This document shows positions 1,955 to 33,569 of a stretch of DNA of 36,430 nt, in pieces. The stretch's first letter is position 1, and the number at the start of each line of letters is the position of its first letter. A model generated the notes under the pieces. That model searched no databases. It saw nothing but the letters and a program-made list of their open reading frames with translations, and was not told the origin of the DNA. Position numbers and translations under genes: made by a program. Source of the stretch: Armatimonadota bacterium (GTDB lineage: Bacteria; Armatimonadota; Zipacnadia; UBA1398; JAKPQA01); contig JAKPQA010000143.1 of NCBI GenBank assembly GCA_029547025.1, positions 1-36,430 of the forward strand. Direction: 5' to 3'.

Positions 1955-3097
1955 CTACTGCAGCTCCCGCGTCCGGTACTCCCGCGCCGCCGTGAAGGTC
2001 GCCAGCACATTCTCGGCCGGTACGTCCTCCTGGATCTCATGCGCCGCCGCGAAGATGTAGCCGCCATGCCGCGCGAGCACGCCGAGCATCTCGCCCGTGG
2101 CGGCCGCCACTTCCTGCGGCGTGGCGCGTGGGAGCAGCCCCTGTGTGTCGACGCCGCCGTGGAAGACGATGCGGTCGCCGTAGGCCTCCTTCAGGCTGGC
2201 CGGAGCCATCTCCGGGGCGCAAGGCTGGATCGGGTTCAGGATCTGCACGCCGCAGTCGATCAGGTCAGGAATGAGGTGGAACACGTTCCCGCACGAGTGG
2301 TGCAGAAACGCCGCATCGGTGTACTGCCGCGTCAATCGGATACGCTCGGTCATGTAGGGCTTCACGAGCCTCCGGAACATTCCCGGCGAGATGAAGCTGG
2401 CGAGCTGTGTCGCGAAGTCATCGCCGCTCGATGTGTAGTGGATGTAGGGTCCGATGGCCGGGTAATAGAGCTCGATGACACGGCGCTGGAACTCGAAGTA
2501 GCGGTCGAAGAACCGCAGCACGAAGTCGGGATCGAGCGCCATGCGGCTCAGGAAAGTCTCGTAGCCGCAGACCCAACAGCCAAGCTCCAGGACGCCGAGC
2601 ACCGGGTGCTCCCCGCAGATGACGGTGTCGGTCTCCTCGTAGAGCCTCTTGGCCGCCCGCGCGAACCGCTCGATGATGGCCATGTCGATGCGTTCCGGAT
2701 CAGGCCACGGGTATGCGTCGAGGTCGTCGATGGTTGCATCGGCCAGAGGCGACTCCACGATCTCCCAGTGCTTCCCGGTGAAACGGCGCCGCACTCCCCA
2801 GCAGTCCACGTGTTCCGAGTCGCTGATCTGGCCGGCGCCCTCGACCTCCGGCGAGAGGATCCCGCCCACCGCGCGCGTGTCGATATCGAGCGCCCGCAGC
2901 AGCCGCTCGTCGAGGGCGGTGCTGTTGGTGTCGGGGACATGCGCAGGATCGGGCCGAATGCCCAGCAGTTCCATCAGCGCCACCCGGGGCTTGGCCGCGA
3001 TGCCCGAGAGTGGGCACCCGCCGAGGTCGAGGATGAGTCTTTCGGGAGCCCGGTGCTCCATGGTCTCGTGGAACCGCTCGCGTCGTGTCTGGGGCAT
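1955..3097 (-). CDS. UROD/MtaA-family protein (probable zinc-dependent corrinoid methyltransferase)
   Basis: This 380-residue protein belongs to the uroporphyrinogen decarboxylase superfamily. Members with an HxC zinc motif transfer methyl groups between corrinoid proteins and thiols. The start is ATG 3097, with GGAGG six bases upstream. HSC at residues 267-269, inside FLHHSCGNV, gives the first two zinc ligands. The position where MtaA-type enzymes carry the third ligand, a Cys, is His here (H353 in AAAHEIQ), so an H-C-H site is possible. FHGGVDTQ and VPAENV are typical family motifs. True heme-pathway HemE is unlikely because its N-terminal signature is missing and no heme genes are near. 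In comparable genomes such proteins sit among sugar genes with unknown roles. The family is certain; the reaction is inferred. Confidence 0.85.
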   Translation of the reverse strand: MPQTRRERFHETMEHRAPERLILDLGGCPLSGIAAKPRVALMELLGIRPDPAHVPDTNSTALDERLLRALDIDTRAVGGILSPEVEGAGQISDSEHVDCWGVRRRFTGKHWEIVESPLADATIDDLDAYPWPDPERIDMAIIERFARAAKRLYEETDTVICGEHPVLGVLELGCWVCGYETFLSRMALDPDFVLRFFDRYFEFQRRVIELYYPAIGPYIHYTSSGDDFATQLASFISPGMFRRLVKPYMTERIRLTRQYTDAAFLHHSCGNVFHLIPDLIDCGVQILNPIQPCAPEMAPASLKEAYGDRIVFHGGVDTQGLLPRATPQEVAAATGEMLGVLARHGGYIFAAAHEIQEDVPAENVLATFTAAREYRTRELQ

Positions 3098-4693: not shown

Positions 4694-5074
4694 TTGGTGA
4701 GGATCCGGATCGCCGCGGGCGATGTCGAGGCCCTGGCGGAGCTCAACGACTCCCCCACCGCCCTCGAGATCATCGAGCGGCTACCCATCTACGCCCGGGG
4801 CCAGCGCTGGGGCGATGAGATCTACTTCCCCATCCCCGTGCATATGGACGAAGAGCCCGGCGCGCGCGAGATGGTCGATGTGGGCGCACTGGCTTACTGG
4901 CCGCCCGGCAACGCTTTCTGCATCTTCTTCGGCCGCACGCCGGCTAGCGATGGTTCGGAGCCCTGTGCAGCCAGCCCCGTGAACCTCATCGGGCGGGTCC
5001 TGACTGACCCGACCGAGTTCAAGCGCGTTGTCTCCGGCGAAGCCGTCTCCATCGAGGTCGTGCCGGAGGGCTGA
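4694..5074 (+). CDS. Cyclophilin-like beta-barrel protein (TM1367 family, PF04126)
   Basis: This 126-residue protein matches the cyclophilin-like family typified by Thermotoga TM1367. It has WGDEIYFPIPV in the middle, then ALAYWPPGNAFCIFFGRTP, then PVNLIGRV, in the family's order. These proteins share the cyclophilin barrel but lack known isomerase activity, and their function is not established. TTG 4694 is chosen because GGAGGT at 4680-4685 lies eight bases upstream. GTG 4697 is only one codon later and equally plausible. There is no signal peptide. A longer open frame upstream to 4532 is Arg-rich and not family-like. A 7-bp hairpin begins three bases after the stop. The gene precedes xylulokinase, but the spacer with three hairpins suggests a separate transcript. 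Confidence 0.85.
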   Translation: MVRIRIAAGDVEALAELNDSPTALEIIERLPIYARGQRWGDEIYFPIPVHMDEEPGAREMVDVGALAYWPPGNAFCIFFGRTPASDGSEPCAASPVNLIGRVLTDPTEFKRVVSGEAVSIEVVPEG

Positions 5075-5077
5075 TTG

Positions 5078-5097
5078 GGCGGGCGAGGACGCCCGCC
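5078..5097 (+). terminator. Hairpin directly after the cyclophilin-like gene
   Basis: GGCGGGC at 5078-5084 pairs with GCCCGCC at 5091-5097 around a six-base loop, starting three bases after the TGA stop. Its position fits a terminator, though no T-run follows. Confidence 0.45.
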
Positions 5098-5124
5098 GGC
5101 ACTGGAGCTGTCCCATTCGTGCCC

Positions 5125-5171
5125 GCGGGCCTCCCGGCCCGCATCGGCACCATCCGGGCGCTCGGGCGCCC
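5125..5171 (+). promoter_or_regulatory. Two further hairpins in the leader of the xylulokinase gene
   Basis: GCGGGCC at 5125-5131 pairs with GGCCCGC at 5136-5142 around four bases. GGGCGC at 5156-5161 pairs with GCGCCC at 5166-5171 around four bases. With the hairpin at 5078-5097 they make three stem-loops within 95 bp, ending 30 bases before the xylulokinase GTG. They could be part of a leader or attenuator, or simply GC-rich spacer structure. Confidence 0.35.
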
Positions 5172-5200
5172 CACAAGTCATGACCGCGAGGTGAGTCCGC

Positions 5201-6733
5201 GTGGGATACCTGTTGGGCATCGATATCGGTACCAGCGGCACCAAGGCCCTGCTCATCGATGAGACCGGCCGGGTGCTCGCCAGCGCCACCGAGGAGTACC
5301 CCCTGCTCACGCCGCGCCCCGGCTGGGCCGAACAGCACCCGCAGGACTGGTGGCGGGCCACGGCCGATGCCACCCGCGCCGTTCTGGCCAAGGCGGGCGT
5401 CACCGGGGCCGACGTGGCCGGTGTCGGCCTTTCGGGACAGATGCATGGCTCCGTCTTCCTCGATGCGAACAACGAGGTCATCCGGCCGGCCCTGCTCTGG
5501 TGCGATCAGCGCACGGCCGCCCAGTGCCAGTGGATCAACTCGACCGCCGGTGAGGGACTGGTGGTCGAGGAGACGCTGAACCCCATGCTCACCGGCTTCA
5601 CCGCCCCCAAGATCATCTGGCTGCGACAGGAAGAGCCTGAGCACTACGCTCGCGTTCGCAAGGTGCTGCTGCCGAAGGACTACATCCGGTGGATGCTCTC
5701 CGGCGAGTTCGCTTCGGAGGTCTCCGACGCGTCCGGCACCGCCCTGCTCAACGTGCGCCAGCGGCAGTGGTCGACACGGCTGATGAATGCCATCGACATC
5801 GATCCGGCCTGGATGGCCCCGGTGTTCGAGTCGCAGGAACCCAGCACACGTGTCAGCGCAAGGGCGGCCGAAGCTACCGGGCTGGCGGCTGGGACACCCA
5901 TCGTCGGGGGCGGGGGCGACCAGGCGGCCGGTGCCGTGGGCAACGGTATTGTCCGCACCGGTGTGGTCTCGTCAACCACCGGCACCTCCGGCGTCGTGTT
6001 CGCCTTCATGGATGAACCGCTCGTGGATCCGCGCCTTCGCGCCCACACCTTCTGCCACGCCGTGCCGGGCAAGTGGCACACCATGGGGGTCATGCTCTCG
6101 GCCGGCGGCTCGCTCCGGTGGATCCGCGACGCCCTCTGCGGCCCCGAGCGCGACGTCGCCGCAGCCATGGGGAAGGATCCCTACGAGGTCATGTGCGAGG
6201 AGGCCGCCGCGGCGCCGCCGGGCTGCGAGGGACTGGTGTTCCTGCCTTACCTCACCGGCGAGCGGACACCGTACCCCGACCCCGATGCCAAGGGCGTGTT
6301 CTTTGGCCTGCATCTCCGCCACACCCGCGCGCATCTCATCCGTGCGGTGTTGGAGGGCGTCGCATTCGGGCTCAAGGACTCTTTCGAGATCTTCGCCGAG
6401 ATGGGCGTCCCAGTCGATCAAGTCCGCGCCTCCGGCGGCGGCGCCCGCAGCAAGCTGTGGCTCCAGATCCAGGCCGATGCCACCAACCATGCGCATCACA
6501 CGATCAACGTCGAAGAGGGCCCGGCCCTCGGTGTCGCCCTCCTGGCCGGCGTGGGCGCTGGGGTCTACCGCTCGGTCGCCGAGGCTTGCGATGCGGTGAT
6601 CCGACTTGCCAGCGAGACCAAGCCCATCCCCGGCAACGCCGAGCTCTACAGCCGCTGCCACGCGCTGTACCAGCGCCTCTACGGCCACCTGGCGAGTGAC
6701 TTCAAGGAAGCTTCGGCCCTGGCGGCGGGGTAG
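5201..6733 (+). CDS. xylB: Xylulokinase (FGGY carbohydrate kinase)
   Basis: This 510-residue cytoplasmic kinase should phosphorylate D-xylulose to xylulose 5-phosphate with ATP, feeding the pentose phosphate pathway. The N-terminal GIDIGTSGTKALL is the phosphate-binding loop. GLSGQMHG is the xylulokinase-specific sugar motif, LLPKDYIRWMLSGE follows, and GGGGDQAAGA carries the catalytic Asp240. The C-terminal RASGGGARSKLWLQI is the FGGY signature. The length is typical. The start is GTG 5201, with GAGGTGAG ending five bases upstream. No xylose isomerase is visible in the window, so the pentose or pentulose must come from elsewhere or the substrate may be a related ketose. A second, distinct FGGY kinase lies at 23532-25076. 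Confidence 0.93.
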   Translation: MGYLLGIDIGTSGTKALLIDETGRVLASATEEYPLLTPRPGWAEQHPQDWWRATADATRAVLAKAGVTGADVAGVGLSGQMHGSVFLDANNEVIRPALLWCDQRTAAQCQWINSTAGEGLVVEETLNPMLTGFTAPKIIWLRQEEPEHYARVRKVLLPKDYIRWMLSGEFASEVSDASGTALLNVRQRQWSTRLMNAIDIDPAWMAPVFESQEPSTRVSARAAEATGLAAGTPIVGGGGDQAAGAVGNGIVRTGVVSSTTGTSGVVFAFMDEPLVDPRLRAHTFCHAVPGKWHTMGVMLSAGGSLRWIRDALCGPERDVAAAMGKDPYEVMCEEAAAAPPGCEGLVFLPYLTGERTPYPDPDAKGVFFGLHLRHTRAHLIRAVLEGVAFGLKDSFEIFAEMGVPVDQVRASGGGARSKLWLQIQADATNHAHHTINVEEGPALGVALLAGVGAGVYRSVAEACDAVIRLASETKPIPGNAELYSRCHALYQRLYGHLASDFKEASALAAG

Positions 6734-9495: not shown

Positions 9496-9636
9496 GTCAT
9501 CTCGCCCTGACACCACTTCAGCGGCCCGCGCACGGCAACCTGCGCTCGTGTGGGGCTGGCAATGGGTCCCGAACGAGGGCAGAGGAAGTTCGCCCAGAAT
9601 AGGCTGGCGGGCACTGCGGGGCGAGGGAGGGACAGA

Positions 9637-12294
9637 TTGCGGCGACCGGGACTAGCGATGTGGTGCTGTGCGAGTCTTGTGGGATGCCTCTGTGCGGTAC
9701 CCCGTGCCAAAGCGGCGGAGCCTGGGACCTTCAGCATCTCGGTCACCTCGCGGTACAACGTCCAGAATCGCCAGCCACGGATCATGCGTGAGTTCCTGGC
9801 GGCCCATCCGAACGTGCGCCTGGTGCAGTGGGATGGGATCCGGATGCCGGCCGAGGGCGCGCGGGCCAGCCTGGCCATGGCCATGGCGGGCAACACCGGG
9901 CCGGACATCTTCGAGACGGACATCCGCCAGTCGGTCGAGCAGCGACTCGCCTATCCGCTGACCGAGTGGATCGGCGAGGATGGCGTGCTCGCCAACGGCA
10001 AGCCGAAGCTCACGGCAGACGGGAAACCGGATCTCAACGGCCAAGTGGATGCCGATGAGTCCAAGTGGCCGCCCTGGATGGAGATCAAGCCCCTCTACCG
10101 GCAGGTCGTGACCGTCAACGGGAAGGTCTACTCCCTGCCGAACCGCGGCGGGACATACGTGGGGATCCTCTACAGCAAGCGTCTGCTTCGGAAGGCGGGA
10201 CTCGATCCGGCCAACCCGCCGCGGACGTATGACGAGTTCATCCGCTGGGTGCGGCTGCTGTATGACCCGGTGAAGAAGACATTCGGCCTGGAGCTGACCT
10301 CGCAGAGTTGGGCCTTCGCGCCATGGGTCGCGACGACGGGCTCGAGCATCGTGGTGCAGGATCGGCAGTGCCCAACATGCGGTGTCTCATACACATTCAA
10401 CGAGCAGGACACGGAGTTCGTCTGCCCCAGGGGTCACGATCTGTCACGCGTGGTGCCCACATGGCGCTGCAACGTGGCCAGCGACGAGTGCACCGAGGCC
10501 GTCGGCTTCTACCACCGGCTTCGCTGGGCGCCATGGCTCAAGGATCGGGAGACCGGCGAGCCCATCGAGCTGAGCCGCCAGGACGTGGCGAACGGATACG
10601 TGAACTTCCAGGGACGGCGCGTGGCTTTCACGCCGGAGGAGGTCATCGAGGGCAGTATCGGCGTGACGACCATCGACCTGCTGGAGACGATGAAGCGGCT
10701 GGGTCGAGACCTGGCCATGTACCCGCTGTGGGCGGGCGACATGACGGAGTTCCAGAACATCGGGATCCAGCCCGACGACATGGGGATGATGCCCTTCCCG
10801 GCAGCCCACGCCGGCCAGCGACCGGTACTCCAGGCGTCGAACTCGTTCTTCATGATCGGCAAAGACGTGCTCCACCGTGGCGGACCAACGGAAAAGGACC
10901 GGAAGGCGTACCGCGACCTGGTATGGGAGCTCATGTGGCGCATCTGCAGTGTCGAGGGCTCCGATGAGGAGATCCGCCGGAAGGTGGCGGCGGGCCAGGC
11001 GCGTTTCCTTAACCCCCGCGACCTGGAGCGGTTGGGATTCACAGACTACATACGCGAGATCCCGCCCGAGAACCTACGGATGTGGCGCGAGGTCGAGCAA
11101 GGAACCATCCTCGAGGTCGTCGAGCCCTTCATGGGCAAGTGGCTCCAGTTCCGCGACTTCTACCAGCGTGAGATCATCGACCTGGTGCTGCGCCCGAGCG
11201 GCAAGGAGTTTGACTATCGGTCGGCGCTCCAGACTCTGGAGCGCGACGCCAACACGGGCATCATGTTCGAGCGTCCGCCGGAGGTGCTCAATGCCTACCG
11301 GCCGAGGGCGAGGATCATCGCCGGCCTCATCGCTCTGTTCATGGCATTCTTCTCCGTGCTCATCGTCCGCGACCAGTTCCGGAGGACCGAGAGCCAGGCG
11401 GGGGTCTACAAGGGGTGGCTCCCCTGGGCCATGCTAGCGCCCGCAGTGGTGTCCATCGCGCTGTGGGGCTATTACCCGCTGGCGCGAGGGCTGGTGATGG
11501 CCTTCCAGGACTACAAGGTCGTGGGGCACTCGCCCTTCGTCGGCCTCGATAACTTCATCAGCATCGCGCTGGACCCCAACTTCTACCACTACTTGATCAC
11601 TACATTCCGATTCGTGCTGTGGAACCTGGGGCTGGCGTTCTGCACGCCCATCTTCCTGGCGTTTCTCCTGACCGAGGTACCGAAGCTGAAGGTCTTCTTC
11701 CGCACGCTGTTCTTTCTGCCGCAGATGACCTCAGGGCTGGTGGTCACCCTGATGTGGAAGGAGATGTACGCCCCCACGGCCCAGGGCACCATGAACCGGC
11801 TCCTGGCGCCGATCCTTTCGTGGTGGCATCTCAAGCCCGTGGACTGGCTGGGGAACCCGCACACGGTGATGGCCTGTGTCATCATCCCGAGCATCTGGGC
11901 GGCCGCGGGGATCAGCAGCCTGATCTACCTGGCGGCGCTGAAGTCCGTGCCCGAGGAGCTCTACGAGGCCGCCAACATCGACGGTGCGACCATCCTCTCT
12001 CGCATTCGGCACATCACCATCCCCACCATCGCGCCGCTGGTGCTCATCAACTTCGTAGGGGCGTTCATCGCCACATTCCAGTCGATGGGATCCATCTTCC
12101 TGCTCACCTTTGGCGGCCCCGGCAAGGCGACGATGGTCATGGGCATGGCGATCTGGCAGGAGGCGTATGTGAACATGCGCTTCAGCCTCGCGACCTCATA
12201 TGCCTGGATCCTCGGCAGCATCCTCATCGGCTTCACGTATCTGCAACTCCGCATCCTCCGGCGGGTGGACTTCCGCCAGGCGAAAGGGGACTGA
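9637..12294 (+). CDS. Sugar ABC importer: solute-binding protein fused to MalF-type permease
   Basis: This 885-residue protein joins two normally separate importer parts. Residues 1-25 are a signal sequence (RR, hydrophobic core, AKA cleavage site; LVGC at 14-17 could instead be a lipobox). Residues about 30-555 are a family 1-like solute-binding domain, with GNTGPDIFE and VYSLPNRGGTYVGILYSK. Residues about 559-578 are a membrane segment. A MalF-type permease follows, with further segments and the ATPase-contact loop EELYEAANIDGA. Within the binding domain, Cys245, Cys248, Cys263 and His267 make a zinc-ribbon-like motif, with Cys278 and Cys285 just after. TTG 9637 is chosen for GGGAGG six bases upstream and because it begins the signal peptide. 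The second permease starts four bases after the stop. No ATPase gene is nearby. The ligand is probably an oligosaccharide. Confidence 0.88.
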   Translation: MRRPGLAMWCCASLVGCLCAVPRAKAAEPGTFSISVTSRYNVQNRQPRIMREFLAAHPNVRLVQWDGIRMPAEGARASLAMAMAGNTGPDIFETDIRQSVEQRLAYPLTEWIGEDGVLANGKPKLTADGKPDLNGQVDADESKWPPWMEIKPLYRQVVTVNGKVYSLPNRGGTYVGILYSKRLLRKAGLDPANPPRTYDEFIRWVRLLYDPVKKTFGLELTSQSWAFAPWVATTGSSIVVQDRQCPTCGVSYTFNEQDTEFVCPRGHDLSRVVPTWRCNVASDECTEAVGFYHRLRWAPWLKDRETGEPIELSRQDVANGYVNFQGRRVAFTPEEVIEGSIGVTTIDLLETMKRLGRDLAMYPLWAGDMTEFQNIGIQPDDMGMMPFPAAHAGQRPVLQASNSFFMIGKDVLHRGGPTEKDRKAYRDLVWELMWRICSVEGSDEEIRRKVAAGQARFLNPRDLERLGFTDYIREIPPENLRMWREVEQGTILEVVEPFMGKWLQFRDFYQREIIDLVLRPSGKEFDYRSALQTLERDANTGIMFERPPEVLNAYRPRARIIAGLIALFMAFFSVLIVRDQFRRTESQAGVYKGWLPWAMLAPAVVSIALWGYYPLARGLVMAFQDYKVVGHSPFVGLDNFISIALDPNFYHYLITTFRFVLWNLGLAFCTPIFLAFLLTEVPKLKVFFRTLFFLPQMTSGLVVTLMWKEMYAPTAQGTMNRLLAPILSWWHLKPVDWLGNPHTVMACVIIPSIWAAAGISSLIYLAALKSVPEELYEAANIDGATILSRIRHITIPTIAPLVLINFVGAFIATFQSMGSIFLLTFGGPGKATMVMGMAIWQEAYVNMRFSLATSYAWILGSILIGFTYLQLRILRRVDFRQAKGD

Positions 12295-12297
12295 GGC

Positions 12298-14256
12298 ATG
12301 CCGATCATCAGCGACATCGATCGCCGGTCGACCAAGGGCCGTGCGGTCACGCTGGGCATCTACCTGGCGCTGATCATCGGCGGGCTGACGATGGTGTATC
12401 CGTTCCTCGTGATGCTGACGGGATCGGTCAGCAATGGCTTCGACTACGACCGAAGGGACCCGCTACCGCGGTTCCTGTGGTCGCGCGAGGACCGCTTCAT
12501 GCACATGCTCTGTGGGTACTTCCCCCCGGCGCACCGGGGGTCGATCCGGCAACTCCGGGCTTACTTCCCCGATCTCCCCGCCGACTGGCAGACGTGGAAC
12601 CAGATCGGCGACGAGCGGAACGCGAGCGACGAATGGGCCGGACAGCAACTGACGCGACTGAGCGACCCCGGGCAACGGCGATGCCTCGAGGCCGCCGCCA
12701 GGGACTACGCCGACTTCATGGCCGAGTGGGACTTGGCGGAGACGATCCTGGCATTCGACAGCCGCCACGTGCCCACGTTTCTCCGATCGCGCTATGGGAC
12801 GCTCGACCGGTTCAACCAGGCGTGGGAGATGTCGACCGACGACTTTGCCAAGGTCGACTCCAGCGAGTGGAGCGGCGAGCCCATCGATCAAGCAGGCTAT
12901 GCGCCGATCATCGATGTGCGCTACAACGACCTGCTGGCCTTCCGCCAAGCGTACCGGGAGAACCAGTTCACGCCGCACCTGAAGGGAGAGGGGGCTCCAG
13001 CGGGGTACCTCCGGCCCGCCGCGTTGAAGTTCGTGTGGGAGGACTTCTGCGCGGCGCGCGACAACACCCTCAGCCCGCAGCAGCTGGACGCGCTGCCCTT
13101 CCCAGTGCCGTCGAATGCCCCGGCGGCGTTGTGGGAGACCTGGAAGGCCTTCCTCAAGAACGGCCTCCCGCTTCGCCATGTGGAGATCGACACCACAGGC
13201 CGCCAGGAGGCATTCCAGGCGTTCCTGCAGGCACGCTTCCCCACCCTCGACTACCTGAACCGCGTCCTGGCCGGGACCGGCCAGGCCTTTGAGCCAGTGA
13301 GGCGGTTTGAGGATCTTCGCCTGACGCCAACGATCCCGGAAGGTCCCATGGGCCGGGTGTGGATGGACTTCGTCTCGACGCATATCCCCGTGGAGCAGTG
13401 GCGCATCCGCGACACGCTGCCCGAGAAGGCCTTTCAGAGGTTCGCCCTGACCCGGCACGGGAGCGTCGAGGCCATCAACTCGGCCTACGGGCTCAGGCTG
13501 GTGAGCCTGGAGCAACTCGGCATCCCATTCGGACCCGCACTGCTCGTGACGTTCGCCAACAGAGAGGGCGCATTCGTCCGAGACAACCTGATTGGGAACT
13601 ACGCGGCAGTGATCGACTACCTGGTCCACCGCGGGCTCGCGGTGCGGAACACGGTGATCCTCGTCGTGCTCGCGGTTCTCATCGCACTAACGGTCAACCC
13701 GCTGGCGGCATATGCGCTGAGCCGATTCCGCCTGAGGGCTTCGGAGCAGATCATCGTGTTCTGCCTGGCGACGATGGCCTTCCCGGCGGCCGTGGCGGCG
13801 ATCCCGGGCTTTCTGCTGCTCAGGGACCTGGGGCTGCTGAACACCTTCGCCGCCCTGGTGCTGCCCAGCGCGGCAAACGGCATGACCATCTTCCTACTCA
13901 AGGGCTTCTTCGACTCACTGCCCAAGGAGCTCTACGAGGCAGCGACTATGGACGGCGCCCCCGAGTGGACGGTCTTCCTGCGGATCTCGCTACCCCTGGT
14001 GAAGCCCATCCTGGCCGTGGGCATGTTGAACGCCTTCATTGCAGCCTACAACGGGTGGGAATGGGCGATCATCGTGGCCCAGGACCCGAAGATCTGGACC
14101 ATCGCCGTGTGGACGTATGAGTTCTCGCAGACGCTCACCGGAGCGCCGCATCTCATCATGGCGTCCTTCATCGTGAACTCGATCCCCGTGCTGCTGGTGT
14201 TCCTCTTCTGCCAGAAGATCATCCTGCGGGGGATCATCTTGCCGCAGATGAAGTGA
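12298..14256 (+). CDS. Sugar ABC importer MalG-type permease with large extracytoplasmic insertion
   Basis: This 652-residue protein is about twice the usual MalG length. Residues 17-40 are the first membrane segment. Residues about 45-445 are an insertion that should face outward. From about 450 the remaining MalG segments follow, with the ATPase-contact loop KELYEAATMDGA and the end GIILPQMK. Inside the insertion a unit recurs: FLRSRYGTLDRFNQAW (161-176), FLQARFPTLDYLN (309-321) and FALTRHGSVEAIN (382-394). Each is followed by an aromatic/Pro stretch. The unit resembles the FxxWLRxRYGTLxxLNxAWG segment of GH42 beta-galactosidases, but no catalytic glutamates can be assigned. ATG 12298 lies three bases after the previous stop, so the genes are co-translated. 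The importer role is firm; the insertion's role (substrate capture or contact with the fused binding domain) is inferred. Confidence 0.88.
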   Translation: MPIISDIDRRSTKGRAVTLGIYLALIIGGLTMVYPFLVMLTGSVSNGFDYDRRDPLPRFLWSREDRFMHMLCGYFPPAHRGSIRQLRAYFPDLPADWQTWNQIGDERNASDEWAGQQLTRLSDPGQRRCLEAAARDYADFMAEWDLAETILAFDSRHVPTFLRSRYGTLDRFNQAWEMSTDDFAKVDSSEWSGEPIDQAGYAPIIDVRYNDLLAFRQAYRENQFTPHLKGEGAPAGYLRPAALKFVWEDFCAARDNTLSPQQLDALPFPVPSNAPAALWETWKAFLKNGLPLRHVEIDTTGRQEAFQAFLQARFPTLDYLNRVLAGTGQAFEPVRRFEDLRLTPTIPEGPMGRVWMDFVSTHIPVEQWRIRDTLPEKAFQRFALTRHGSVEAINSAYGLRLVSLEQLGIPFGPALLVTFANREGAFVRDNLIGNYAAVIDYLVHRGLAVRNTVILVVLAVLIALTVNPLAAYALSRFRLRASEQIIVFCLATMAFPAAVAAIPGFLLLRDLGLLNTFAALVLPSAANGMTIFLLKGFFDSLPKELYEAATMDGAPEWTVFLRISLPLVKPILAVGMLNAFIAAYNGWEWAIIVAQDPKIWTIAVWTYEFSQTLTGAPHLIMASFIVNSIPVLLVFLFCQKIILRGIILPQMK

Positions 14257-25211: not shown

Positions 25212-25565
25212 GTGGAGCTAGAAACGTCCGACGGCCAGGCGGGCGGCGAACAGATCCGTCTCTCGGACCTCATCCGCGAGAAGCGGTGGGACGAGGCACT
25301 CCGACTGCTCGAAGAGGCCCTCGCCGTCCGTCCGCGCGACCCCGCGCTGTGGTACCACCGCGGATGCGCGCTGGCCCACCTGGGAAGACTGGCCGAGGCC
25401 GAGGATGCCCTGACGCACTGCCTCACAGAGCGCCCCGGGAGCCGAGCGGCGCAGTGCCTGCTCGCGACCATCAGTGCCCTACGGCGCACCGAGGGAGCCG
25501 CAGAAGACCCCCCCGCGCCCATCAGTCGAGTGAGAGCTGCACGGCCTGACGGTCGCCCTGACTGA
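25212..25565 (+). CDS. Small TPR-repeat protein
   Basis: This 117-residue soluble protein starts at GTG 25212 with GGAGG eight bases upstream. Residues about 15-82 form two tetratricopeptide repeats: REKRWDEALRLLEEAL, then WYHRGCALAHLGRLAEAEDAL. TPRs bind other proteins, so it is probably an adaptor. The C-terminal tail is Pro/Arg-rich and likely disordered. Its last 44 bases overlap the 3' end of the convergent gene at 25522-27243, so the two transcripts are antisense there. The partner is unknown. Confidence 0.75.
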   Translation: MELETSDGQAGGEQIRLSDLIREKRWDEALRLLEEALAVRPRDPALWYHRGCALAHLGRLAEAEDALTHCLTERPGSRAAQCLLATISALRRTEGAAEDPPAPISRVRAARPDGRPD

Positions 25566-27243
25566 CCACGACAACTCGGCGGGCCGTCCGGCCGTCGTCG
25601 GCCCGCGCGGCAATGGTGAACTCCTGGGCCTGGGGCGTGGCGGACGTGATCTGTATCAGGCAGGGCGCGATGCCCTTGAGCCGATCGTTCACGAACACCT
25701 TCAAGCCTGGTGGACGCGTGTCGACCGCCAGGTAGGTTCGGGCGAAGTGCTCATAGACGGCCCTGGACACCTCCGGGATCAATCCGGCGGGGTCCGGACC
25801 ACCGGCCCGGCCCTCCACATCCCGGAGGAACACCACGAGCACGTACGTGGTGAACGGCGTCCGCACGATGGCGGCGTCAGCAATCAGCCCGGGCTGGCTC
25901 GCAGTCAGGTTGGCAACCTCAGCCTCGGCGGGCACCCCCGCGGGTATGAGCTGGCGATTCGCATGCCGCCGCAGCATCTCATACATCGCCTTCGACGCCT
26001 CGCCACTCACGCTCTGTCCGATGGCCACCTGCTCCAACATCCGGGCCAAGTCGTCGGGCGTCGTCAGGTTCTCGAGACCTCTTTGCTTCGCCGCGACGTC
26101 GCCAGGCTTGCGTTGGACGGACGTGGCCGTCATTCCGAGTAGCGAGGCCGTCGAGTCGATGCTATCCAGCCCCAGGAGGCCGATCAGAGCATCCGCGGCA
26201 GTCAGGTCACCTCCGATGATCATGGCCTGCGTGAGTTGGAAGACGGTCCGGGTCCCCCCTGGCGGTGCGACCCCCGGCTTCAGCTTTCCCTCGCGAATCT
26301 GGCGCGTGGTCTCGGCCATGACCGGCAGGCCCACCAGTTGAGCCGCAGGGAATGGAGTATCGGGCCGGATCCAGGTCGCCTCGCCGGTCGCCAGGTTTCT
26401 GGCAACCAGGCCGACGTGCCATGGAGTGCGATTCGTGATCGCGAGCACGCTCTGGAGCAGCCGCTGGCTGCACTGGGCAAGGACCCTGGCCGTGCCGGTA
26501 TCGTCCACGTTCTCCTCGCCGAGTTCGCCCTCGGGGTCCGAAACCAAGGGAGGCGCTGCCCCGTGCTCGGCCGGCGCCGGCGTGGTCAGCGCCATGACCA
26601 GGGCCTGGCTGATGGCTTGGGCCGCCTGCTTCTGGAAGGTGTCCGTGGCCAAGACGCGCTCGTCATGTGGGTTCGACACGACGCCCAGCCCGACGGACAC
26701 GGCCGGAGCGGTGCAGGCCTCGAGTCCGTAGTCATAGCGCTTGAACACGCCCTGGCCACTGGCGGGCTGGGTCAACGCGTCGAAGATGGCGTGGGCCAGA
26801 GCTCGACTCTCGTCGGTGAAGAAGAGCACCACTGGCCCACGGGTCGACGGGTCGGTCGCCGCATCGGCATGAAGCCGGACGAAGGCAGCTGCATGGCACT
26901 GAGCCGCCGAACGCGCTCTGGCCATGGCATCATCGCGCGGGTCATCACCGATGCGCCAAGGCTGGGCCACCGAACGCGTGAGCACCACCGCAGCTCCGAA
27001 GGACTCGAGCCGCACCCGAAGCTCCTCGGCCACCCGGAGGACGACCTCGGCCTCGCTGACCCCGCCGGGACCGACGGCACCCGCGCTGATGACCGTGCCG
27101 GCCGCGTCTTTGAGGCCATGGGAAGGGTCAACCACGATGGTCTTCCCGGCCAATGGGCGGTCGGCCGCGGCGGGCGCCTGGGCGACGGCGTCGATGCCTC
27201 CCCAGGCCAGCAGCGCACAGAATACGCCCAAGCATAGCCGCAT
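25522..27243 (-). CDS. Exported amidase-3 / class A beta-lactamase-like / PEGA protein with degenerate active sites
   Basis: This 573-residue protein starts at ATG 27243, with a signal peptide to about residue 22. Residues 32-220 match N-acetylmuramoyl-L-alanine amidases: IVVDPSHG (His42), SEAEVVLR, and RLHAD (His125) supply zinc ligands. But the catalytic Glu of the family's V-E-x-G-F-x-S-N motif is Gly185 (VSVGLGVVSNPHDE). Residues 260-490 match the class A beta-lactamase-like fold, yet the SxxK motif reads QLVG (302-305) and SDN reads GDL (345-347). Residues about 505-573 are a PEGA domain (VDTRPPGLKVFVND). It probably binds cell-wall material without cutting it. GGAGGT lies 12 bases upstream, a long spacing. 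An ECF-type promoter at 27301-27327 and an ECF sigma gene lie just upstream. Domain calls are good; loss of activity is inferred. Confidence 0.82.
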   Translation of the reverse strand: MRLCLGVFCALLAWGGIDAVAQAPAAADRPLAGKTIVVDPSHGLKDAAGTVISAGAVGPGGVSEAEVVLRVAEELRVRLESFGAAVVLTRSVAQPWRIGDDPRDDAMARARSAAQCHAAAFVRLHADAATDPSTRGPVVLFFTDESRALAHAIFDALTQPASGQGVFKRYDYGLEACTAPAVSVGLGVVSNPHDERVLATDTFQKQAAQAISQALVMALTTPAPAEHGAAPPLVSDPEGELGEENVDDTGTARVLAQCSQRLLQSVLAITNRTPWHVGLVARNLATGEATWIRPDTPFPAAQLVGLPVMAETTRQIREGKLKPGVAPPGGTRTVFQLTQAMIIGGDLTAADALIGLLGLDSIDSTASLLGMTATSVQRKPGDVAAKQRGLENLTTPDDLARMLEQVAIGQSVSGEASKAMYEMLRRHANRQLIPAGVPAEAEVANLTASQPGLIADAAIVRTPFTTYVLVVFLRDVEGRAGGPDPAGLIPEVSRAVYEHFARTYLAVDTRPPGLKVFVNDRLKGIAPCLIQITSATPQAQEFTIAARADDGRTARRVVVVSQGDRQAVQLSLD

Positions 27244-27300
27244 GGCCGCGACACCACCTCCGGCCGCTTCCCGGCTCAGCGAGTTCGCCCCTACTCGGTT

Positions 27301-27327
27301 GACGTCTTCGGGGTGAGTCTCGTTCCC
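27301..27327 (-). promoter_or_regulatory. Candidate ECF sigma-type promoter for the amidase-like gene
   Basis: Read leftward, GGGAAC (27327-27322) is followed after 17 bases by CGTC (27304-27301), the common GGAAC-N16/17-CGTC pattern of ECF-sigma promoters. It lies 57 bp before ATG 27243 and about 70 bp after the stop of the ECF sigma gene upstream. This suggests the sigma factor directly drives the envelope gene beside it. Confidence 0.5.
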
Positions 27328-27397
27328 ACTGGGCCCAAGGACCACAACGGCCGGCCACGCTGCGAGGGTCAAACCAGCGCGAACGTCCGGTGCCTGC

Positions 27398-27928
27398 CTA
27401 GACCCAGCCCTGAGCTTTGGCATAGCTCTCGAGCTGCCGTCGAAGCATGCGCCGGCCGCGGTGGACACGCGACCGCACCGTGCCAATGGGCGTCTGCATG
27501 GCGGCGGCCACCTCCTCGTAGGTGAGCTCGCCCACGTCGCACAGCGTGACGGCGATGCGGAACTCATCAGGGAGGTTGGCCAGCGCCGCCTGGATGTTCT
27601 CGTCAGGGATCTTCGCCATGAGCAGATCCTCGGGCAGGAGCTCCGTCGACCCATGTTCGACGCTCATGTCGTACTCGGCCGACGGCTCGAGATCATCCAT
27701 GGGCACCAGGTCCGGCGAGCGCTTGCGGCGCCGGAACTCGTTGATGTAGGTGTTGGTCAGGATCCGGAACAGCCAGGCTTTGAAGTTGGTGCCGGACTGG
27801 AATCGGTCAAAGGAGGCGTACGCCTTCACGAGCGCATCCTGCACGAGGTCTTCGGCATCATCGGGGTTCTTGGTCATCCGTAACGCCGTAGCCCGAACCT
27901 GGCGAATACAGCGGTCGGCCTGGCGCAT
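27398..27928 (-). CDS. ECF-family RNA polymerase sigma factor (SigR/RpoE-like)
   Basis: This protein of at least 176 residues directs RNA polymerase to stress promoters. Region 2 is [17 protein letters not shown], then [18 protein letters not shown] and [15 protein letters not shown]. Region 4 is the C-terminal [19 protein letters not shown] followed by [18 protein letters not shown], a helix-turn-helix. The mid-linker is acidic. The motif set is closest to the SigR/SigH redox-stress group, but no zinc anti-sigma gene follows, as it usually does. The start is uncertain: ATG 27928 is used, TTG 27997 and GTG 28063 are in frame, and none has a strong ribosome site. The next gene downstream carries a matching ECF-type promoter. 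Confidence 0.88.
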
Positions 27929-28199
27929 GAACTCATCGCGGCCGTGGCTGCCCGCCGACGGCCGATGCAGTCCGGTGATCTCGAGACGCCCTGGCAAGAT
28001 ACCACGATCCCTGAGTTGCGGCCGAAGTCGGCCTCCCGTGAGACAGGCCCTGTGGGCTGCCACGCCGGGTCAACCATCGGGTCCACCCAGTGACGGCCGA
28101 CCGCGCAACCGCCCCCGGGGTATTCGACCCGTGAGCGGACTCGCCCTTCGGCGCGCCGCAGCCCAAGCCGAGCTTCCTCGACCCGGGCATGACGCCCCA

Positions 28200-29921: not shown

Positions 29922-32900
29922 TCAGTGCTCCGACACCGCCCACTCGAACGCAAACCCCCGCGCGCCATAGAGATTCGCGACCTCCGCGGCCAGCACATTC
30001 TCACCTGCGCGCAACCAGGGCGCCAGATCGAGCTCGATGATCCCTTCGTCCGTGCTGGTGGCACAGGCAAGCTGTCCGTTGACGAACAGACGGCCCCGGT
30101 CATCCATGAGGACGCGCGCGGGCGCTCGGACGGGCGCCTGCGCCAGGGTCAGTGTTCGCCGGAACCAGCACACTTCCGGCGGCGGATCGCCGGGGGCCCA
30201 GAGCACCGCCGTGTTCGCACCAAACCGATGAAGCACGTCGTGGTAGCTCCGCAACTCGAAGGGCCGCCACGCCTCGTTGTCGGTGGCGGTCCGGGTCATG
30301 ACGAGCGTCGGCCCGAAGCTGGCGTCGGCCACCATCGCACTCTCCCAACCCGTCTGGGGCGAGACACTGGCCAGCCAACTGCGACCAGTGGACTCCATGT
30401 GGCCAGGAGCGGCCGGCTGGAACCGCCAATGGTTATCAAACCACCCCTCGGCTACCGGCGCCAACGTCACGGTCGAGCCGATGCACCGGCGGACCGCCAC
30501 TATGTAATCGACGTCCAGCGTGCCCAATGGCGCAGGGTAGGGATCCTTCTGGCCCAGCTGGCCAATGGCCTGTAGTGCCACGGGATCCTGAGCTGCCATA
30601 ACCACCACGTAGCGGCCGGGCGCCTCCGGGTTCGGGTAGATGAACTTGTGGGCCACGTCACGCGGATCCACACCCGGCGCAAGGGGACAGGGTCGGCCAT
30701 CTCGGAACGGCATCTGGGCCGCCAGCTGCGCCACCACCCCGTTGACGAACTCACCCCCGAACAACAACAGGTTGTGGCTCCCCATTAGCTCGGGCGTGAC
30801 ATCGGCATCGCGAACCACCCGTGGAACACCCCACCACCACTCCCGCCACGCCTTGGCCGCATCCTGAGCCATGGAATAGCTGGCGGCGACCAGGGCCGCG
30901 TCCGCCCCCTGGGTGCCGTAGACGATAGCGAAGGGCCGGGCCAGGGCATCGCGCATGGGACCGCAGAACCCAGCGCGCTTCTCTTCCGCCGGAACAGGGC
31001 CATCGGCCAGCGCCCAAGCGCCCGGTCCGGCTGAAGAGAGGTCGAGTGTCCCCGAAGGAGGCAGCGTCACCCGCAGCACGGACGACCGGTTCACGCTGAC
31101 GGTCACCGGCTGGGCCGCCCGGATGGCCGGGTGGGCCCCCAGGTCGAGCGAGAGACGATTGACACCATCGACCAGCAAGTCTACGACGTTCCCCTCAGCG
31201 ACATGGGCGGCCACACTGCCGGTGCGGCCTTCCCTCTCGAGCTGGACAACCCGCACAAAGAAGGCCCGGCCGAAGCGGGCGGAATCGGTGGCGTAGCTCA
31301 CTCGCGATGGCGGCCTCCCCAGTGCATGGCGCTCAAGCCAGGGGACCCACTCTTTGGCGAGGTCGGGCATGCTCTCGTGGCTGGCAAACGGGCGCTCCCG
31401 GTATTCGAAGTCCGGGCTCAGTATGCGCCGGAGCTGACGCTCGAGTACGCGACTCCCGGCAACAGGCACAATCTCATCGCGCGTCCCATGGACGGCGAAG
31501 ACCGGGGTCTGCGACAGGTTCGTGACCAGCCGCTCCTCATTCCACACACCCCAGACCGACCCGGCAGACCCCCCGGCAATGGGAACGATGGCTGCCCAGT
31601 CGGAGGGGTACCGCATGCCCAAGTGCCACACCCCGCGGCCGCCCATCGAGAAACCCACGAGGTAGATACGGCTCGCGTCGACCGGAAACCGTCGCGACAC
31701 CTCGGCAATGACCTCTCGCACATCAACCTCGCCGGCATCGCGCCAGTCCTGGTTCCCTCGCCCAAAGGGGTAGACCATGAGCCAGCCGCGATCGCCCACC
31801 AGGTCCTTCTCTGGGCCGTACGAACCCGACGGGAAGGCGAAGGGCCCGTTGCCGCTATCCCAACCGTGCAGATTGACGACCAGCGGGATGGGCCGGGTGG
31901 CATCGAGGCTCTCGGGCAGGAAGAGCGCATACGGCTGGATGGAGCCATCCAGGCTCGAGCGATAGGCCAGCAGCACCGTCTCTCGACGCCGGTTCCGCGC
32001 CCCGGCATCGATGGCTCCCCGGTCCAGCACATCGCGAACTCCGCGCGCGGCCGATGACACGAGTCTCCCCGCGCTGTCCACCTCGGCTGCGACCCACGGA
32101 TGGGCGAAGAAGCGCGGCCATGCCAAGTCCAGAAGGTACCGGGCCGGCAGGGCAGCGTCGTGCCCCGGTGGCAGATCGGCCAACCTCCGCTCGAGCTCCT
32201 GCAGCCCTGACCGATCGAGCAACGCCTCGTCGCAGAGGACGCCCTGCTCGAACCGCGCCGCCCGGTTTCCGGCTGGGCCCTGGACATCCACCCGTACCGT
32301 GTACGCGCCCGGAGCCCCGACGGGAACCCCGAACCGGAACGTGAGGTCCACGGCGCCCACCTCGACGGCCGCCCTCAAGGCGACCTGCGAGTCACCCACG
32401 GCGCGACCATCGGGACCGATGAGCACGGACTCGAACCGAAACTCCCCGGATCGCGGAGCCAGCGGATCGCGTTCGAGGGACGACAGCCTCGCGGTCACCG
32501 GGTCTCCCGGCGCCACCGCAGGGCGCCCCGTGCTGAACGCAAACCGACCGGCCCCGGCCACCATGACCACCGCATCGCGCTCCTGAGGATAGGCCGCCCG
32601 GTATAGGACACCCCCCTGGCCGTCGAGCACCTCCAGGCCCAACTCGCCCTTTCCCGCCTGGGTCACGCGGAAGGGCACCTCGGCTTCCACGGGACCCTCG
32701 ACCGGTGAACGGCAGGCGACCTCTGTCGCGCTCGGCGGGCCAAAGGGCGTGCGGTAGGTCGCCCGAACCGTCGCTAGGTTCAGGAGGCCGGAAGGGCCCG
32801 CGAACCACAAACGCGCACGACCCTCACCCAGCCCAAGCCCCTCGATGCGGATACCTTCCACGATGGCCCGGGGGGCTCCGAAGAACAGGTCGGCGAAGCG

Positions 32901-33569
32901 ATCCGCGCGGTCGCGGTCGCCGAAGGTGGGGCTGAGCAGTGCCCCGCGCTCAGATCCCATGACAGTGTCACGGATGATGTTCAGTCCCCACACATCACCA
33001 TCAGCCGGTTTGGCGGCAAGGGCCACCCACGGGATCGCCAGCTCAGCGGTCCATCCGCCGGCCGAGGCCTTCACCTTGGCGCGGATCCCCGTGAGGACGG
33101 GCGGGTCAGCCAGGTAGCCCAGAGGGCGCGAGTAGAGCCAGCCGGTCGAGTCTATCGTCACTTCGACTACCCGGCGGTGGTCGTGGCTGGGGTTGAGGTA
33201 GACGATGAGTGCCTCATCGTCCCGCGGCCCGTCCTGGGTCATCACCGCCTCGGGCACCGGATCCATGTCGCCCATGACGTAGAGGCAGGTGTCGTCGTAC
33301 GCGATCGAACAACGCGTGGCAACCTGAGGGCCACCGGCTCCATCGACCCCGATCAAGAGGGGGCCCAGATCACCAGCCGCGGCCCAGGCGCGATCGCCGA
33401 TCTGGCCATCGATCACCGGTGCAACGGGAGCCCGAGCAGCCACGACCGAGCGGATGGCGTTCTCGCGAGGTAGCTCAGTGGCCCCCGGCGGCCCGGGGCA
33501 CAGCATCAGGAGCCCGAGCGCACTCAGGCGAAGAGGAATCGCGGATCGCTGGCCACAACCTGCGGGCAA
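29922..33569 (-). CDS. Large exported multidomain esterase with CBM9-like and galactose-binding-like domains
   Basis: This 1215-residue secreted protein starts at TTG 33569 with GGGGAGC about six bases upstream. A signal peptide (LRLSALGLLMLC) ends near residue 30. Residues about 48-235 are a CBM9-like sugar-binding domain (VIDGQIGDRAW, DDEALIVYLNPS). A beta-rich region follows to about 450. Residues about 540-755 are an alpha/beta hydrolase of the feruloyl-esterase/PHB-depolymerase type: LVVNLHGWD, GFSMGG with Ser641, HGTRDE with Asp698, and SHES with His731, a full catalytic triad. The C-terminal 450 residues have no family I can name except a final galactose-binding-like sandwich (GRLFVNGQLAC, GENVLAAEVAN). 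It probably removes ester groups from plant or algal polysaccharide. It diverges from pheA across 135 bp. Confidence 0.85.
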   Translation of the reverse strand: MPAGCGQRSAIPLRLSALGLLMLCPGPPGATELPRENAIRSVVAARAPVAPVIDGQIGDRAWAAAGDLGPLLIGVDGAGGPQVATRCSIAYDDTCLYVMGDMDPVPEAVMTQDGPRDDEALIVYLNPSHDHRRVVEVTIDSTGWLYSRPLGYLADPPVLTGIRAKVKASAGGWTAELAIPWVALAAKPADGDVWGLNIIRDTVMGSERGALLSPTFGDRDRADRFADLFFGAPRAIVEGIRIEGLGLGEGRARLWFAGPSGLLNLATVRATYRTPFGPPSATEVACRSPVEGPVEAEVPFRVTQAGKGELGLEVLDGQGGVLYRAAYPQERDAVVMVAGAGRFAFSTGRPAVAPGDPVTARLSSLERDPLAPRSGEFRFESVLIGPDGRAVGDSQVALRAAVEVGAVDLTFRFGVPVGAPGAYTVRVDVQGPAGNRAARFEQGVLCDEALLDRSGLQELERRLADLPPGHDAALPARYLLDLAWPRFFAHPWVAAEVDSAGRLVSSAARGVRDVLDRGAIDAGARNRRRETVLLAYRSSLDGSIQPYALFLPESLDATRPIPLVVNLHGWDSGNGPFAFPSGSYGPEKDLVGDRGWLMVYPFGRGNQDWRDAGEVDVREVIAEVSRRFPVDASRIYLVGFSMGGRGVWHLGMRYPSDWAAIVPIAGGSAGSVWGVWNEERLVTNLSQTPVFAVHGTRDEIVPVAGSRVLERQLRRILSPDFEYRERPFASHESMPDLAKEWVPWLERHALGRPPSRVSYATDSARFGRAFFVRVVQLEREGRTGSVAAHVAEGNVVDLLVDGVNRLSLDLGAHPAIRAAQPVTVSVNRSSVLRVTLPPSGTLDLSSAGPGAWALADGPVPAEEKRAGFCGPMRDALARPFAIVYGTQGADAALVAASYSMAQDAAKAWREWWWGVPRVVRDADVTPELMGSHNLLLFGGEFVNGVVAQLAAQMPFRDGRPCPLAPGVDPRDVAHKFIYPNPEAPGRYVVVMAAQDPVALQAIGQLGQKDPYPAPLGTLDVDYIVAVRRCIGSTVTLAPVAEGWFDNHWRFQPAAPGHMESTGRSWLASVSPQTGWESAMVADASFGPTLVMTRTATDNEAWRPFELRSYHDVLHRFGANTAVLWAPGDPPPEVCWFRRTLTLAQAPVRAPARVLMDDRGRLFVNGQLACATSTDEGIIELDLAPWLRAGENVLAAEVANLYGARGFAFEWAVSEH

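Follow-up and report, generated by a model that had tools for sequence, protein, structure and literature searches.

A predicted double pseudoenzyme of amidase and PBP-A-like folds encoded behind an ECF sigma factor in an Armatimonadota genome

Dead amidase folds and dead PBP/beta-lactamase folds are each already known as regulators. In mycobacteria, the amidase homologue CwlM has an essential, non-enzymatic regulatory role (PMC4946905), and the same paper cites EnvC, a dead hydrolase by which amidases are activated (PMC4946905). In Bacillus thuringiensis, the PBP PbpP is a sensor, required for sensing, whose gene comes directly after that of its ECF sigma factor; PbpP cannot bind beta-lactams without its active-site Ser, and it acts together with an anti-sigma factor (PMC8092216). 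Among proteins of related fold, LRA-5, which is without Glu166, is a very poor enzyme whose activity is insignificant (PMC12777564). Here we describe one exported chain that carries both dead folds, encoded in a 36,430-nucleotide stretch of DNA (the window) from an Armatimonadota genome; neither 291 genomes of the phylum nor the literature searched yielded another such chain.

The window protein is exported and keeps its zinc residues, whereas CwlM is cytoplasmic, is phosphorylated and has lost them. With AmiC2 of Nostoc (5emi) and LytH (7tj4), its amidase part has the fold, the zinc ligands and export in common, but it carries Gly185 in place of the catalytic Glu and is fused to a second domain. 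That second domain shares its fold and conserved structural residues with PBP-A (2j7v) and LRA-5 (8eo5), and differs from them in having neither SxxK, SDN nor KTG. As with PbpP, a PBP-fold protein is encoded next after an ECF sigma factor, here on the same strand and across a 154-nt gap; unlike PbpP, the window protein has no active-site Ser and no anti-sigma gene alongside. Streptomyces BlaB (2wuq), a beta-lactamase-fold regulatory protein, is a single domain whereas the window protein has two, and the likeness between them rests on the fold and a weak sequence match.

One exported chain with two altered active sites

The gene is one uninterrupted reading frame, 573 codons long without the stop, as the preliminary description had it in both coordinates and frame (Table 1), and GGAGGT lies about 12 nt 5′ of its ATG. 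Because the N terminus reads by eye as a Sec signal peptide with AVAQA as its last residues, the protein is predicted to be exported, and by eye its sequence has no membrane part and no cytoplasmic domain. The domains follow in the order Amidase_3, Beta-lactamase2 and a weakly PEGA-like tail, and a Pro/Ala-rich linker is present. The codon-position GC of the gene (0.72/0.51/0.82) is that of neighbouring genes, and both halves show coding periodicity and match adjacent genes in codon-position GC and codon usage. In the tail, residues 505-531 match PEGA (PF08308), but at 14.2 bits against a cut-off of 20.8 (E 0.041), so that of the PEGA domain described earlier a weak label is what remains. The strands of the tail are predicted with moderate confidence, and an alignment with a relative on contig C390 of genome G002 runs into it, up to residue 538.

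Table 1. Features of the pseudoenzyme gene and the adjacent sigma locus (window positions)
Feature	Residues	Position	Strand	Basis or remark
Double pseudoenzyme gene	573 aa	25522..27243	-	ATG 27243, stop 25522-25524
Sec-type signal peptide, MRLCLGVFCALLAWGGIDAVAQA	1-23	27175..27243	-	judged by eye
Amidase_3 domain	36-215	26599..27138	-	profile match, alignments, fold
Zinc ligand	H42	27118-27120	-	alignment
Zinc ligand	E64	27052-27054	-	alignment
Zinc ligand	H125	26869-26871	-	alignment
Gly codon replacing catalytic Glu	G185	26689..26691	-	alignment with intact relatives
Beta-lactamase2 / PBP-A-like domain	278-472	25828..26412	-	all three motifs lost
QLVG at SxxK site	302-305	26329..26340	-	alignment with intact relatives
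GDL at SDN site	345-347	26203..26211	-	alignment with intact relatives
LTA at KTG site	446-448	25900..25908	-	alignment with intact relatives
C-terminal tail, weakly PEGA-like	505-573	25525..25731	-	PEGA E 0.041
Gap between the two genes		27244..27397	-	154 nt; ZAS anti-sigma gene begins here in relatives
ECF sigma factor (SigH/SigR type)		27398..27958	-	start approximate; frame stays open as far as 28069

The amidase part matches Amidase_3 (PF01520) with an E-value of 1.9e-26 and 93.6 bits against a cut-off of 27. In alignment with intact relatives, H42, E64 and H125 fall on the zinc-ligand columns, and G185 occupies the catalytic Glu column (PAVSVGLGVVSNP versus PRVLVECAYMSNP), which holds Glu in all seven aligned amidase relatives. 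An AlphaFold model from a small alignment reached a pLDDT of 85.3 and a pTM of 0.85, and Foldseek returned AmiC2 (TMt 0.89) and LytH as the closest PDB structures, together with CwlV. By its sequence, then, this part is an Amidase_3 homologue that should not be an active amidase, because Gly185 stands where the catalytic Glu belongs. It is improbable that it nevertheless remains catalytic, through a displaced residue or another form of zinc hydrolysis, with the second domain alone dead. All three zinc ligands are indeed kept, and E174, within the segment preceding the catalytic strand, is a candidate for the nearby displaced residue that the preliminary description had allowed for. However, E174 sits 11 residues from the catalytic Glu column, on that of the conserved Arg in 'VLRETD', and the catalytic column itself is Glu in every amidase relative aligned.

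The second domain matches Beta-lactamase2 (PF13354) at 123 bits against a cut-off of 22 (E 1.3e-35), and its active-site Ser position is Gln302. Modelled together with the tail from a small alignment, it reached a pLDDT of 84.2 and a pTM of 0.77. Its PDB fold matches (E 8e-18) are led by LRA-5 and PBP-A (TMt 0.79-0.81), which rank before true beta-lactamases. These two lead the fold matches, and LRA-5 is itself without Glu166 and nearly inactive, so 'PBP-A-like' describes the domain better: it carries the Beta-lactamase2 profile and fold that the first reading called a beta-lactamase, and is nearer to the PBP-A/LRA-5 type. Automatic annotation would label the protein an amidase or a beta-lactamase, which would be a false resistance call.

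Alignment with the Amidase_3 and class A families thus bears out the catalytic substitutions that had been claimed, namely retained zinc ligands with Gly185 for the catalytic Glu, QLVG on the SxxK column and GDL on the SDN column; the change of KTG to LTA had been missed. The claim that both folds are well conserved also agrees with the confident predictions (pLDDT 85 and 84) and their PDB matches. The broader statement that all key residues are lost holds for the key catalytic residues of both domains and fails for the zinc ligands of the amidase.

The loss is concentrated at the active sites. Measured against 10 intact relatives, with 'conserved' meaning 90% or more, none of the 6 catalytic positions is kept, as against 16 of 22 other conserved positions (Fisher p 0.0025) and 7 of 8 invariant positions (p 0.0047). 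This pattern is not due to chance. Because the loss hits catalytic positions selectively and both folds are confidently predicted, decay of the gene is unlikely, in keeping with the earlier view. An early stage of decay, or a functionless accidental fusion, would suit a gene that occurs in one genome only and a domain with all three motifs gone. We nevertheless consider it a decidedly slim prospect, given that all 573 codons are intact, that coding periodicity is seen in each half, that the signal peptide and linker are in place, and that the loss is selective and leaves the predicted folds intact.

Relatives in the order, class and phylum

No homologue of the fusion was found in 46 class genomes, 291 phylum genomes, genome-contig scans, viral contigs or plasmids, and the combination of amidase and Beta-lactamase2 is seen in the window genome alone. 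The window genome was placed in the class Armatimonadia. Beta-lactamase2 itself is present in 137 of the 291 phylum genomes, and SxxK and SDN are both present in all 30 of its best phylum members. The class members listed outside the window's order gave no Beta-lactamase2 match at the threshold of the phylum scan. Six long Beta-lactamase2 frames (in G259, G258, G204, G095, G202 and G143) were considered as fusions and rejected: by eye they contain no amidase, and the parts 5′ of Beta-lactamase2 resemble unrelated stop-free frames. The window genome has one other Amidase_3 gene, which is intact and lies on contig C288.

Within the order, for which the analysis covered two other genomes, UBA1398 and Bin_177 among them, an intact Beta-lactamase2 type (G002, C390) carries SLIK, SDN and KTG and has a tail similar to that of the window protein. 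A membrane-anchored pseudo-Beta-lactamase2 protein with ELxK, SDP and NRP is found in both G001 and G002. Orthologous loci of this membrane-anchored type lie at 5014-6201 (-) of L016 and 1969-3018 (+) of L017, with ELTK or ELMK, SDP and NRP. The pseudo-Beta-lactamase2 proteins of UBA1398 (L052/L009) and Bin_177 (L015), which belong to the same order and have the same altered motifs, share with the window domain the change of the KTG Gly to Ala. Unlike the window protein, they are membrane-anchored, have no amidase, and keep the Lys of SxxK and the Ser of SDN.

Selection on the fusion gene is not measurable from one genome, so dN/dS, like the sharing of substitutions among homologues, is given by analogy, for the sister proteins only; these have one set of substitutions in common. 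Over the dead domain of the sister pair, dN is 0.25 and dS 1.1, a ratio of about 0.22 that is approximate because dS is near saturation; over the N-terminal part the ratio is about 0.5. The low value for the dead domain indicates purifying selection, and a dead version of the Beta-lactamase2 fold is thus kept by selection in the window's order. A tree of the domain settled neither the place of the window domain nor a single origin with the sister pseudo type.

The sigma factor locus and the proposed role

The ECF sigma gene directly upstream of the pseudoenzyme is shared by 36 of the 46 class genomes as an ortholog that is almost always single-copy. Directly after it, an anti-sigma gene with an HxxxCxxC zinc finger is present in all 29 other class genomes whose sigma locus was examined; it has about 255-300 codons and a membrane span predicted by eye. 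Only in the window genome, 1 of 30, is this gene absent at the site, where the pseudoenzyme gene is found instead. A class anti-sigma profile retrieved no full-length ortholog from the window genome (best partial match 2.5e-12), whereas in G005 it retrieved one with an E-value of 1.4e-68. A move of the gene elsewhere was also considered and rejected, most zinc-finger genes examined in the window genome being paired with other sigma genes. Loss of the anti-sigma gene is therefore likely but, in a genome that is 96% complete, not certain. One zinc-finger (HxxxCxxC) gene of the window genome (G000), on contig C180 (L096, 1328-2515), has no adjacent sigma gene within the 4.5 kb examined and gives a partial match to the profile.

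The pseudoenzyme shows none of the ZAS (zf-HC2) features: it has no HxxxCxxC and no cytoplasmic sigma-binding domain, and it begins with a signal peptide. Judged from these predicted features, the anti-sigma factor must be something other than this protein, which has neither the zinc finger nor a cytoplasmic part. In the gap between the two genes, GGAAC-N17-CGTC at 27326..27301 is a weak ECF-type promoter match; the window holds 3 matches of this type, where chance would give 1.9.

In 23 of the 29 relatives the sigma gene is preceded by a kinase-like gene. This gene is likewise missing at the window locus, which suggests that the locus has been rearranged; neither the upstream nor the downstream neighbours of the window locus show synteny with class relatives. 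The adjacency of sigma factor and pseudoenzyme may result from this rearrangement. That it results instead from faulty assembly or binning, with the contig (C94) joining unrelated pieces between the two genes, is very unlikely. The genome is metagenome-derived, with 369 contigs and a contamination of 4.83%, and the usual cassette is broken at both sides; against this, GC is uniform, the sigma gene is typical of the class, the window's own order supplies one of the best Beta-lactamase2 matches, and the fusion itself lies inside one frame.

With both catalytic sites lost, both folds kept and the gene placed behind a sigma factor without its anti-sigma gene, the protein is probably a wall-binding regulator without catalysis. 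We give roughly even weight, for and against, to the specific proposal that it serves, once exported, as a regulator or scaffold without catalysis, made from two cell-wall enzyme folds and tied to envelope stress. In such a role, the zinc-containing amidase pocket would still dock the stem peptide of peptidoglycan but could not cut it, and the second dead domain would offer a protein- or wall-binding surface. The pseudoenzyme might be co-expressed with the sigma factor, or controlled by it, in an envelope-stress response, and might signal the state of the wall or guide the active amidase encoded on C288. The 'sensor or scaffold' of the preliminary description accordingly agrees with the dead domains, the kept folds and the regulatory context, while peptidoglycan binding and sensing are putative.

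A regulatory role is favoured by where the gene lies, next to and downstream of an ECF sigma gene without its anti-sigma partner gene. A counterpoint to this is that no part of the protein lies in the membrane or the cytoplasm, from where it could contact the sigma factor. The absence of a cytoplasmic part is consistent with a purely structural role as a periplasmic tether or scaffold for the wall, made up of the dead amidase, the dead PBP-like domain and the PEGA-like tail, without signalling and with the sigma factor a coincidental neighbour. We hold this to be a minority reading: the cassette's neighbours differ from those of relatives on both sides, and rearrangement may have produced the gene order by accident, but the two genes share a strand across 154 nt and the anti-sigma gene is missing at the site in this genome alone of 30. 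A bolder version of the regulator, in which the two dead enzymes together sense wall integrity and have come to supply the input of an ECF sigma factor left without its anti-sigma partner, would need a hypothetical membrane or cytoplasmic link, and we regard it as a long shot. Should the exported protein bind peptidoglycan, it would amount to a ready-made reader of the wall with two domains, and the location of its gene, after an ECF sigma gene that lacks the usual anti-sigma neighbour, would let one test directly how sigma factors of this kind can be controlled.

Elsewhere in the window, a 914-aa frame (9550-12294) combines SBP_bac_1 (solute-binding protein) and BPD_transp_1 (ABC permease) domains, and the gene after it (12298-14256) encodes a permease of 652 aa whose N-terminal extension is long. 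A 1215-aa protein (29922-33569) carries CBM9-like and esterase / PHB-depolymerase-like domains.
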